In this document: piece by piece, positions 37,679 to 48,032 of the stretch
How positions within the stretch are numbered: the stretch's first letter is position 1
Layout of the letters: each line of letters begins with the position of its first letter
Source of the DNA: Oscillatoria princeps RMCB-10
GTDB taxonomy: Bacteria; Cyanobacteriota; Cyanobacteriia; Cyanobacteriales; Oscillatoriaceae
Assembly: GCA_019359235.1 (NCBI GenBank)
Contig: JAHHHT010000015.1
Span: 124,001-188,000 of the forward strand
Direction: 5' to 3'
DNA: 64,000 bases
Program-made: the position numbers and the translations under genes
Notes under the pieces: model-generated
Database searches by the model: none
What the model was told of the DNA's origin: nothing
Seen by the model: only the letters and a program-made list of their open reading frames with translations

Positions 37679-37711
37679 AGAAACCAGGTTTCTTTAAGAA
37701 ACCTGGTTTCT
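37679..37711. repeat. 33-bp palindrome, AGAAACC family (CCAGG variant)
   Basis: AGAAACCAGGTTTCTT and its inverse around one base. Compensating C/G changes in both arms (CAGG / CCTG) keep the stem intact relative to the CCGG copies. Confidence 0.85.
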
Positions 37712-37798
37712 TGTTACCGCTTTGAGAAACCGGGTTTTCCTAGCAAGTTGAGATAGATATAGCAGCTCTAAATGATGGGCGCAACCGCTGAGTTCCAG

Positions 37799-37878
37799 AC
37801 CCCTGGTTTCTTAAAGAAACCGGGGGGCTGAAATTTCCGGGACTGAGAAACCCGGTTTCTTAAAGAAACCGGGTTTCT
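37799..37878. repeat. Two further palindromes of the AGAAACC family
   Basis: An imperfect copy at 37799-37826 (CCCCTGGTTTCTT / AAGAAACCGGGG) and a perfect copy at 37846-37878. Confidence 0.85.
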
Positions 37879-44400: not shown

Positions 44401-46882
44401 GATCGCGCGTCAGATCTGGGAAACTGACCGCCGCATCATGACGGTGGGCGCAACGGAGATTCTCGAAGAACTTGTCACAGCACCGGAGATGACGCGAACG
44501 TATCTGTCAACGAAAAGCCCCTGGCGCGACAGTGAGGGAAACATCATTGGTTTGATTGGCATAGCCCGTGACATTAGCGAGCGCAAGCAACAAGAAGAGG
44601 CGCTGCGGCGCAGTGAGGCGCGGTATCGCTCTCTGGTTGTTGCCAGTTCCCAGATTGTCTGGCTCAACAATGCTGAAGGACTGGCTGTTGACATGCCGGA
44701 GTGGGGGGCTTATACGGGTCAGAGCAAGGAAGAACTCGCAGGTTGGGGCTGGTTAAATGCGATTCACCCCGACGATCGCCAGCGCACGGCTAATGCTTGG
44801 TCACTAGCAGTTGCAACGAAAAGTCTGTATGAAACTGAGTGCCGCATTCGCTCGAAGAATGGCCACTACCGCTATTTCTATATTCGTGGCGTTCCCGTGC
44901 TAGCAGAAGATGGCAGCATCCGCGAGTGGGTGGGCGTCTGCACGGACATCCACGACCGCAAGCTGGCTGAGTCTGAACAGCAAAAGTTGATAGCTCTTGT
45001 GGAAAGCAGCTCCGACTTCATTGCTCTAGCTACACTTGAGGGTGAGGTTTTGTTTCTCAATGAAGCCGGTCAAAAGCTGGTAGGGATGTCAGGGATGGAA
45101 CAAGTCAAGCAAACGCCGATACCTGACTATTTTATGCCGGACGACTTGCCGGTGCTGCAAGAGCGCATTTGGCCGGCTCTTGCCGAAACTGGTCGCTGGG
45201 AGGGAGAGGTTCGCTTCCGGCACTTCAAGACGAATCTGCCGGTGCCGGTCTATTATAACGTCTTTACTGTTAAAGACTCGCAGACAGGTGAGCCCATAGC
45301 TTTAGCCACTGTCACGAAAGATTTTACGGAGCGCAAGCGAGCGGAGTCGGAACTGCGGCAAAGTGAAGCGCGATTCCGAGAATTAGCAACTCGGGAGGCG
45401 CTGCTCAACCGGCTCGCCAGCCAGATTCGCGCTTCTCTCGACCTGGATACGATTCTGGAAACTGCAGTGCGGGAGATCTATCACTTGCTGCAGCTCGACC
45501 GCTGTAAGTTTATCTGGTATCTCCCCGACGCACAACCGCCGGTTTGGAATGTCGTGCATGAAGCTAAGACACCCGAGCTGTTCTCACTTTTGGGTTCCTA
45601 TCCGCTTGAGGCGACGTCTTCTCTAGCCCAAAAGCTCTCCAACTTGGAAATCTACCGATTTGACGATATTGAAAGTGTGTCTGACCTAAAAGAGCGGCAG
45701 TTTTTTCAGGCTAAGGGATACAGGGCTCTCGTGGATTTGCCTATTCCAACGCGCCGGGGTGCGCTCGGTGTCATCGGCTGCATTCAATCCACTCACCCCC
45801 GCGACTGGCGCGAGGATGAAGTGGAATTGCTGCAGGCGGTTTGCAATCAATTGGCCATTGCAATCGACCAAGCGCAACTCTACGAGCAAAGCCGCACTGC
45901 AGCAGAAATAGCCGAAACTAAAGCCCGCGAGCTCGAACAAGCTCTGAGCGAGCTAAAACAGACTCAAGCCCAACTCGTTCAAAGCGAAAAGATGTCCAGT
46001 CTGGGGCAGCTGGTTGCTGGGGTGGCTCACGAAATTAACAATCCGGTTAATTTCATCTACGGCAATATTACCCCCGCCAAGGAATATGCCGAAGACTTGC
46101 TGAATCTGCTGCAACTCTACCAGGAGTCCTATCCCCATCCCGCACCGGCTATTCAAAAGGAGATGGAGGCGATTGACCTCGATTTCATTAAGGAAGACTT
46201 GCGAAAAATTCTGAATTCGATGAAGGTGGGAGCCGACCGCATCCGCCAGATTGTCGTTTCGCTGCGCACGTTCTCGCGGCTGGATGAAGCGGATATGAAG
46301 GCGGTTGACATTCACGAGGGGATTGACAGCACTCTGCTGATCCTGCAAAGCCGTCTGAAAGCTAAACCAAACGGGCCGGCTATCCAGGTGTTGAAAGAGT
46401 ACGGCGACCTGCCCAAAGTCGAGTGCTATGCTGGTCAGCTCAATCAGGTGTTTATGAATATTCTGACTAATGCGATTGACGCTTTGGAAGAAGGGCACAG
46501 GGCATTGGGCACTGGGGGTGCGGGAGAACCGCAATACGTCACGCCCCATACCCAATCCCCAATCCCCACGATTCGGATTCGCACCGAGGTGGGGCGTGGG
46601 GGAAAAGAGCAATCACCCATGCCCCATGCCCAATGCCCCATGCCCAATTCCCATGTTCTTATAGCGATTGCTGATAACGGTCCCGGGATGACGGAGGAGG
46701 TGCGCCGCCGGCTTTTCGATCCTTTCTTTACGACTAAACCTGTCGGTTCCGGTACAGGGCTTGGAATGTCGATTACCTACCAGATTGTGGACAAGCATGG
46801 CGGTCAGTTGCAGTGCTTTTCAGCCCCCGGTGAGGGCACGGAGTTCTTGATTTGGATTCCGATTCAGCAGGCAAAAAGGTAG
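41408..46882 (+). CDS. Multi-PAS sensor histidine kinase with ethylene-receptor-type input domain
   Basis: 1824 aa. Residues 1-130 have three membrane helices and the exact copper/ethylene-site pattern of plant ETR1: Asp35, Tyr42, Pro46, Cys75 and His79 keep the spacing of ETR1 Asp25, Tyr32, Pro36, Cys65 and His69. Nine PAS domains follow (starting near 155, 284, 414, 576, 697, 817, 947, 1072 and 1192), then a GAF domain (1331-1488), a HisKA domain with phospho-acceptor His1541 ('GVAHEINNP') and a HATPase domain with intact N ('NAIDALEE'), G1 ('DNGPGM') and G2 ('GSGTGLGMS') boxes. Two repeat-derived inserts sit between the N and G1 boxes (46541-46571, 46613-46655). No receiver domain and no adjacent response regulator. 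Signal: probably ethylene plus ligands of the PAS domains (inferred). Terminator at 46978. Confidence 0.92.
46541..46655 (+). repeat. Heptamer-type repeats inside the kinase coding region
   Basis: Two tracts: CCCCATACCCAATCCCCAAT-like (46541-46571) and CCCATGCCCCATGCCCAATG-like (46613-46655). Both keep frame and encode Pro/Met/His/Gln-rich inserts in the ATP-binding domain. The second is the same unit as the intergenic array at 12875-12920. Confidence 0.85.
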
Positions 46883-46891
46883 CCGCGCATA

Positions 46892-46924
46892 AGAAACCCG
46901 GTTTCTTAAAGAAACCGGGTTTCT
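46892..46924. repeat. 33-bp palindrome, AGAAACCCGGTTTCTT family
   Basis: Canonical perfect copy, 9 bp after the kinase stop codon. Confidence 0.9.
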
Positions 46925-46977
46925 CAGCCCCCCACCCCCAACCCTCTCGCCGCACGCGGGAAGGGGGCGACCGCAGG

Positions 46978-47008
46978 GTGCCCTCCCTCAAGGGAGGGCA
47001 CTTTATTT
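46978..47008 (+). terminator. Rho-independent terminator of the PAS kinase
   Basis: GTGCCCTCCC and GGGAGGGCAC pair as a 10-bp stem around TCAA, followed directly by TTTATTT. This is the clearest classical terminator in the window. Confidence 0.75.
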
Positions 47009-47182
47009 CTAGTTTGGCTGTAGCGGAACGCACCCTACTTGTGAATTGCCGCAAGCGTTGCAGCTCCCCAGGCGCATCGCGCTTGGGAACAGCCACGGTA
47101 AAATGGCGTCACTACAAGATGTTAAACCCTGTCCCCGGACTGGGGAGTGACAGCCGTTTACAAAAATTTACTTTTGATTGAT

Positions 47183-47445
47183 TTAACTCGCTCGTTGCCT
47201 GAGGTAAAATGAAGCAACGATTGAGTTAACGACCGTCAGAGCGGCCAAACTAAGAGGCGCGACTCGCTTCAAGGCGCGGGCGCGTTGGGTTTCTGAAGGA
47301 AAAGTTTACGTCCGAGAAGCCGGTTGAAAGACTGGGATAGCAGACCGGCCTTACAGGCACAAGGATTGCTTTCGGAAACCTCTGAAAGCGGATATCTGGC
47401 TTAAAGGTCAGAGAATCCCATCCTTTCGCAGGGTGGGAGTGTCAA
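47183..47445 (+). ncRNA. Structured element resembling a TnpB-less IS200/IS605 unit (omega-RNA-like)
   Basis: TTGAT (47178-47182), the known target motif of IS605 members such as ISDra2, is followed at once by a hairpin TTAACTC-GCT-CGTTGC / GCAACG-ATT-GAGTTAA (47183-47229). After a GC-rich hairpin region come GCCGGT/ACCGGC (47319-47349), GCTTTC/GAAAGC (47368-47389), and GAATCCCATCC-TTTCGCA-GGGTGGGAGTGTCAA (47414-47445). The last part resembles what I recall of the right end of cyanobacterial tnpB elements, where the omega-RNA scaffold ends at ..TCAA and the flanking DNA becomes the guide. No tnpB or tnpA coding remains are visible. It ends 17 bp before the start codon of the zinc-ribbon gene. 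It could instead be a regulatory leader of that gene. Confidence 0.45.
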
Positions 47446-47462
47446 ATTCATTAGGCACCATC

Positions 47463-48032
47463 ATGGCTTATATATTTAACGCGGGCGCGGGCCATCAGGT
47501 AATTGTGGAAAATCAGGGGCAGCAGACTGCGGTCGCCACGGTCAGCAGCAGCCCCGGACAGCAGCAAAGCCAGCGCACCAGCTTTACCACCGGCACTTGG
47601 ACGGCACCCCCCGCCGCGTTCCGCACGCCCGCCGGCATCGTCTTGCAAATTACTGCAGCACAAGGGCAGCATTTTGTCAATATCGCAGCCACCGGCATCA
47701 GCACGGTGAGTGAAGCGCCCAACCTGGCTCTGGCGGAAGAGTTGCCGGCGCAGCAAGGCGGGATGCCGGCGGTGCGGGCAATGGAACCGATGAAACCGAT
47801 GGAACCCATGAAACCGATGGAACCCATGAAACCGATTTCGCCGGTGGAACCCATGAAGATGGGGGATATGGAAATGCGGATGAACCCAATGGAGATGCGC
47901 ATGGGCAATATGTCGATCAGCCTGGGGAATCCGCTTTCCGCCGGTGCCGGCAAGAATTTCTGTCCGCAATGCGGCGCTGCAGTCGAACCGAGCGCTCGCT
48001 TCTGCACTAGCTGCGGGCACCGTTTAATTTAA
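47463..48032 (+). CDS. Zinc-ribbon protein with Met-Pro repeat linker
   Basis: 189 aa; ATG 47463 gives the expected N-terminus 'MAYIFNAGAGHQVIVENQGQQT'. Residues 1-90 form a compact beta-rich domain that I recognise from cyanobacterial hypothetical proteins ('SSSPGQQQ...FTTGTWTAPPAAFRTPAGIVL'). Residues 100-150 are a Met/Pro/Lys-rich linker with three MEPMKP units (18-bp DNA repeat, 47787-47836). The C-terminus is a zinc ribbon with two CxxC pairs ('CPQCG', 'CTSCG'). No function known. There is no clear Shine-Dalgarno, since the structured element at 47183-47445 lies almost against the start. Confidence 0.82.
   Translation: MAYIFNAGAGHQVIVENQGQQTAVATVSSSPGQQQSQRTSFTTGTWTAPPAAFRTPAGIVLQITAAQGQHFVNIAATGISTVSEAPNLALAEELPAQQGGMPAVRAMEPMKPMEPMKPMEPMKPISPVEPMKMGDMEMRMNPMEMRMGNMSISLGNPLSAGAGKNFCPQCGAAVEPSARFCTSCGHRLI

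Follow-up and report, generated by a model that had tools for sequence, protein, structure and literature searches.

Several described systems come close to the locus reported here. The palindrome-associated transposable elements (PATEs) of Haloquadratum are, according to the sections of their description considered here, transposase-free IS605-type derivatives generated by core deletion, with near-terminal palindromes and without target duplication (PMC3119063). RAGATH-18, a structured RNA, turned out to be the guide scaffold of IS607 TnpB; 64% of its copies are reported to adjoin an IS607 TnpB, which leaves a remainder that do not (PMC11061315).

The window (the whole stretch of 64,000 nucleotides of Oscillatoria princeps RMCB-10 that was analysed) carries, upstream of a zinc-ribbon gene, what is probably a decayed, non-autonomous PATE-like derivative that has kept the guide scaffold of its right end and by now provides that gene with its promoter and leader. 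Features of the locus are detailed in Table 1. TTGAT (47175-47179), the two-part hairpin, further short stems and the end block named in the original prediction were all present in the sequence. The element region folded at -98.8 kcal/mol (z -2.98), a value that beat 200 of 200 dinucleotide shuffles. No transposase or tnpB gene was detected inside the element, merely an 11-codon tnpB fossil with its stop. Rfam covariance models, HEARO and RAGATH-18 included, gave no match for the element, and the Rfam scans of the window and its relatives yielded solely a Yfr1 elsewhere plus chance matches. A plasmid collection searched with the element gave no match, and elsewhere in its own genome there were just partial copies of the block, none of them adjoining a tnpB.

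Table 1. Features of the zinc-ribbon leader locus (positions in the window).
Feature	Position	Strand	Basis or remark
TAAAAT, -10-like box immediately 5' of the first half of the omegaRNA	47099-47104	+	Compared with L013, L015 and L017
omegaRNA 5' half (GTCACTACAAGATGTTAAACCC..CCCCGGACTGGGG)	47108-47145	+	Local alignment to nine compact copies
Insert of about 147 bp, repeat module	47146-47292	+	Partial copies L002, L003 and L004; boundaries approximate
TGAC	47148-47151	+	First bases common to window, G001, G002 and L004
HLR1 (RpaB)-like site TTTACAAA-AA-TTTACTTT	47157-47174	+	One mismatch to KTTACAWW-N2-KTTACAWW; function putative
Imperfect hairpin of the original prediction	47183-47229	+	Fold and self-match
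Promoter-like site TTAACT-16-TAAAAT	47183-47210	+	Only one in 46880-47480 on either strand
R1 covariance model match	47263-47445	+	100.6 bits; truly homologous from about 47293
tnpB 3' coding-end fossil, FTSEKPVERLG-stop	47305-47340	+	Aligned with the C-terminal end of the intact L036 TnpB
Right-end hairpin block (GAATCCCATCC..GGGTGGGAGTGTCAA), ending in GTGTCAA; scaffold 3' end and element right end	47413-47445	+	Empty-site comparisons; exact junction
Would-be guide position	47446-47465	+	Covers leader and start codon of the zinc-ribbon gene
Zinc-ribbon gene, 189 aa, Zn_Ribbon_1	47463-48032	+	Conserved beyond the genus without the element

To describe the RNA, a covariance model (R1) was built from six compact solitary copies of other Oscillatoriales-type genomes, the window copy being left out. 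Besides the window copy, R1 recovered matches in a total of 60 out of 100 genomes of the order. When 100 related genomes were searched, the whole block was found at the orthologous place in G001 (89%) and, with internal deletions, in G002; in other genera only its 3' part was recovered, at loci unrelated to this one (L013-L017, L020 and L021). Compact solitary RNAs elsewhere have a length of about 185-190 nt. The conserved secondary structure of the RNA family is supported by covariation: in an alignment of 21 matches (20 distinct copies), fitted to the model and thus biased in favour of structure, 33 of 52 pairs had changed on both sides, which none of 500 shuffles equalled, and the paired cells fell from 95% to 47-49% when partners were slid by one column. 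One match (L018, in G030) was rejected as a chance match inside a coding gene.

Other members of the family differed in their surroundings. Loci L046, L047, L048, L050 (1501 to about 1690) and L051, from four genomes of one genus (G046, G086, G102, G019) and from G097, presented the omegaRNA core with a TATAAT-like box, the right end being missing. The 3' end of L047, L048 and L051 resembles an intrinsic terminator, and the gene neighbourhood is identical across L046-L048, a type that is possibly an omegaRNA become an sRNA gene passed on vertically. In G095 (L013, 1471-1716), a solitary-type omegaRNA whose 3' end is degraded was located directly upstream of a different tnpB reading frame of 401 aa, and another solitary omegaRNA, of 217 bits, ends about 36 bases before an mreB/rod-shape-protein-like reading frame (L014, 1469-1652, in G061).

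The relation of this RNA to tnpB was established at six R1-match loci (L036, L042, L043, L044, L045 and L055), where a tnpB-like gene of the same orientation has its 3' end within the RNA or immediately ahead of it. The RNA is thus situated at the 3' end of tnpB and overlaps the last codons of intact genes; in L036 its core is the 3' coding end itself (..QTLEELVARQG-stop), the sequence to which the fossil of the window was aligned. The L036 protein showed OrfB_IS605 and Cas12f1-like_TNB domains (Pfam); among natural proteins of solved structure, its best match is TnpB (8bf8). Since the RNA lies 3' of or overlaps tnpB, and L036 was identified as a TnpB, it is the right-end scaffold (omegaRNA) of a TnpB lineage. 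The right end had been predicted to be such a scaffold, and the tnpB-bearing relatives, which carry the same RNA and share this end, bear the prediction out. The TnpBs of the own genome were considered as the source of the element and discarded, as the tnpB elements examined there have different right ends. Reading frames of this kind in the own genome (L028-L031) have 534-577 codons with a long N-terminal extension, and in three of them the upstream sequence resembles an IS607-type DNA-binding start (MAYVPLRKAVEFL..).

Solitary copies of other genomes were mobile. G104 contains a full-length relative of L033 (G038), 98.7% identical to it over 396 bp. Copies of the L033/L183 type start with TGAC/AGAATTT (the slash marks the junction) and finish with GTGTCAA, and their left end is 95.7% identical to that of a complete tnpB element (L182, G038). 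L183 (G104) is solitary, has both ends, measures 386 bp and is inserted 3' of TGAC, target duplication being absent. Its empty site is seamless (GATGAC/AAGC), and G038 and G078 have the uninterrupted gene, GATGAC/AAGCAATT, which aligns gap-free along 524 bases. L183 was used for the left junction instead of L033, whose left flank shows an additional difference of 56 bases from the empty site. On the basis of the shared ends and the perfect empty site, the solitary copies lack tnpB and are PATE-like derivatives of the IS200/IS605 type, with insertion 3' of TGAC; derivatives without tnpB and with both ends, as proposed for this locus from the beginning, do exist and have moved. Both ends are common to solitary and full elements in the L033/L183 type; in the window copy the right end alone is clear. 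A pattern scan detected exact-core copies in genomes of Tychonema, Microcoleus, Kamptonema and Lyngbya, among others. The smallest derivative observed was an element of about 65 bp (L024, 1501-1565, in G061), which consists of 26 bp from the left end and 35 bp from the right end and nothing more.

At the window locus the right junction is exact. In the sister genus (G003, G006 and G007) the zinc-ribbon gene occupies the same neighbourhood without the element, with a transglutaminase gene on its 3' side in the three genomes and a histidine-kinase gene on its 5' side in G006 and G007. The empty leader reads TTGAC/ATCAGGCACCATC-ATG in G003 and G006, the empty site being TTGAC/ATCAGGCACC, and TTGAA/ATC.. 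in G007, and the filled leader of the window reads GTGTCAA/ATTCATTAGGCACCATC-ATG; the window has ATTCATTAGG in place of the ATCAGG of the empty site, a change of a few bases. Given that the leaders of the sister genus are empty, the element, whose right end is at 47445, is an insertion fixed in the genus. The start codon adjoins the element as predicted, in a corrected position, ATG 47463, 17 bp past the right end. Orthologous elements are present in G001 and G002, and the element has been retained vertically in the genus. Element and gene are equally conserved with respect to G001 (90.0% versus 89.2% identity); in G002 the RNA core is deleted and the R1 score is 40 bits, compared with 95.1 bits in G001.

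The position conserved within the genus at about 90% identity, together with a single promoter-like site 5' of the RNA, would also be expected of a cis-regulatory leader (riboswitch-like or an RNA thermometer) that evolved for this purpose and merely resembles an omegaRNA. This explanation is highly improbable, and as to origin it is refuted, because the same RNA occurs at the 3' ends of tnpB genes as well as at numerous unrelated loci, and it has no Rfam match. Moreover, zinc-ribbon homologues were detected in 20 of 40 relatives, and the R1 RNA is upstream of the gene in three of three genomes of the genus and in none of the 17 other genomes with the gene. The sequence therefore does not accompany every zinc-ribbon homologue, as the original prediction had expected of a simple gene leader.

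The left side of the element is more complex. The original prediction placed the left end at TTGAT and described a compact unit of about 263 bp from left to right end; neither was sustained, although the features themselves were; the RNA ends at 47445. TTGAT was rejected as the left junction, since the homology of the dispersed copies in the own genome starts at about 47147, some 30 bp further upstream, and the family target is TGAC. The left limit lies beyond 47178: the insert reaches to about 47146 and the RNA's 5' half to 47108, the two halves being parted by the repeat of about 147 bp. When the 5' half was aligned with nine compact copies the scores were 29-48 (shuffle maxima 21-25), and in two of the nine comparisons just one of the 3876 background windows taken from the 64 kb scored as high; the stretch that R1 had used for its 5' part, 47263-47310, reached only 12-17. 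TAAAAT/TACAAT-like boxes occur in solitary copies elsewhere in the same position as the one preceding this half. Partial copies of the insert module in the own genome (L002, L003 and L004) lack an omegaRNA. Because both halves join to a full-length compact RNA, the copy appears to be split, and these alignments indicate that an inserted repeat is probably what separates them. The 5' half was not found in G001 or G002, though both hold the insert. Its presence in G000 alone makes a second, independent fragment possible, and with the insert but not the 5' half in G001 and G002, the order of events is one that we infer.

TGAC at 47148-47151 is the motif that precedes the left ends of related elements (TGAC/AG..), and it could mark the left end of the element or that of the inserted repeat. 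Read in the first way, the locus would be a simple element of 294 bp with a left and a right end (47152-47445), TGAC being its target and 47108-47145 an unrelated older fragment. Window, G001 and G002 all begin at TGAC, and TGACAG also starts the left ends of related full elements; nevertheless, this simpler arrangement is unlikely, as both halves join to the full-length compact omegaRNA and partial copies of the 47146-47292 module elsewhere in the genome have no omegaRNA. The surroundings of L003 did not yield an empty site of the 5' module, since a high-copy repeat is present there. A high-copy repeat with about 40 matches in each of G000 and G002 was observed in L007 (6200-6850, query part 356-590), adjoining the Yfr1/guaB region. 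Palindromic repeats of the AAGAAACCCGGTTTCTT type are also present in the window, at 46892-46925, 9198, 13203, 37679-37878, 48211, 51743 and 59350.

The disrupted or ambiguous left end also bears on whether the element is a still-active mobile unit, an active PATE moved in trans by a host TnpA. Its relatives moved recently and precisely, and the own genome encodes Y1 transposases (six PF01797 matches), whose compatibility with the element is putative. Against this, the element has one orthologous place in the genus, other places hold only partial fragments, and the own-genome tnpB elements examined end differently, which makes present activity highly improbable.

Most likely, the element is now a fixed relic that supplies the zinc-ribbon gene with a promoter and a leader. 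With 17 bp alone between the right end and the ATG, transcription of the gene would have to start inside or upstream of the element, which would thus provide both promoter and 5' leader. The promoter-like site (Table 1) is inside the repeat of about 147 bp; the comparison of the window promoter with TAAAATGATGGAAC of the empty site gave no significant orthology. The consensus KTTACAWW-N2-KTTACAWW of the HLR1 site and a range of RpaB activation from about -45 to -66 have been described (PMC13421787). The HLR1-like box of the window, the sole match with one mismatch or none in the 64 kb, occupies roughly -60 to -43 relative to the start that the -10 box predicts, near that range, and has two mismatches in G002; light regulation of the gene through RpaB may be suggested from this position. 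Regulatory leader, one of the options of the original prediction, is therefore the likeliest present-day role at this locus, but not one that extends to the homologues in general.

Use of the RNA as a guide was evaluated from the would-be guide position. It had one other match in the genome with three mismatches or fewer, and as a second site this lone 3-mismatch match was rejected, for it is in unrelated sequence. The profile of the cognate TnpB gave more than 450 bits in G008, G038, G061, G078, G094 and G095, and no member of the clade was found in the three genomes of the genus (G000, G001 and G002), the best match of the own genome reaching merely E 8.9e-20. Neither a TldR-like partner of the matching clade in these three genomes nor a credible trans target was detected. 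Owing to the missing cognate TnpB and second site, and to the deleted core of G002, guide function is unlikely here, and the proposal that a TnpB elsewhere in the genome uses this guide is not upheld.

A domesticated guide, that is, an omegaRNA expressed and then loaded in trans by a TnpB or a nuclease-dead TnpB-like protein and directed to the zinc-ribbon start or to empty alleles, would agree with a scaffold intact in G000 and G001, with a guide position that is identical in both and sits on the start codon, and with the 18 RNA matches of G061 against one tnpB of the matching clade. These observations are outweighed by the protein and target results above and by an RNA that is interrupted by about 147 bp and has no core in G002, and this possibility is accordingly very unlikely.

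Under the preferred reading, a decayed PATE-like derivative, an ancestral cyanobacterial IS200/IS605-type tnpB element would have lost tnpB and tnpA and kept its right end with the guide scaffold. In the ancestor of the genus it would have inserted 3' of a TGAC target in the zinc-ribbon leader, 17 bp before the ATG. Later, a genomic repeat of about 147 bp carrying a promoter would have split the RNA, the element then serving as promoter and 5' leader of the gene, with guide function presumably lost at the window locus.

Where a cognate TnpB persists, a different situation may be considered. In G061, a single matching tnpB coexists with about nine strong solitary omegaRNAs, of which one lies just upstream of mreB. 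It is conceivable, although doubtful, that in such genomes the solitary elements constitute a dispersed set of guides for one TnpB acting in trans, the window copy being a fossil of this arrangement. If true, this would be an RNA-guided system distributed over protein-less mobile units, from which one nuclease could draw many guides, and such trans use is directly testable in cyanobacteria. What makes the family relevant is that its tnpB-less elements have a complete, covarying TnpB guide scaffold and were precisely moved; in the window, an omegaRNA would have been stranded in a gene leader after the loss of the enzyme. As the family lacks an Rfam model, such relics would be missed by annotation. 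In the literature searched, in which subscription journals were thinly covered, no description was found of a complete scaffold in protein-less mobile units or of a split copy fixed in a leader.

The locus is a genuine orphan relic of a TnpB guide RNA, from a PATE-like family known in kind. A TnpB-derived guide near a gene start is analogous to the use made of it by TldR repressors (PMC13418256), from which the locus differs in that no TldR-like partner of the matching clade and no sign of trans targeting were found. Like RAGATH-18, it is a structured RNA identified as a TnpB guide scaffold, but it belongs to another RNA family and another TnpB lineage, and its insertion is precise, 3' of TGAC, and not of the IS607 type. 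With the ISDra2-type omegaRNA/reRNA (PMC8612924, PMC10278001) it shares a right-end scaffold that overlaps the tnpB 3' end and a guide taken from the flank; in contrast, the window copy has no adjoining tnpB, the matching clade was not found in its genome, and it has no Rfam match. Finally, the solitary family resembles the PATEs, as far as the sections of their description considered here extend, in consisting of transposase-free IS605-type derivatives that arose through core deletion, with palindromes near their termini and without target duplication (PMC3119063). It is distinguished from them in being cyanobacterial, in keeping a complete, covarying guide scaffold, guide RNAs being unmentioned in those sections, and, as to the window copy, in being split and fixed in a gene leader.
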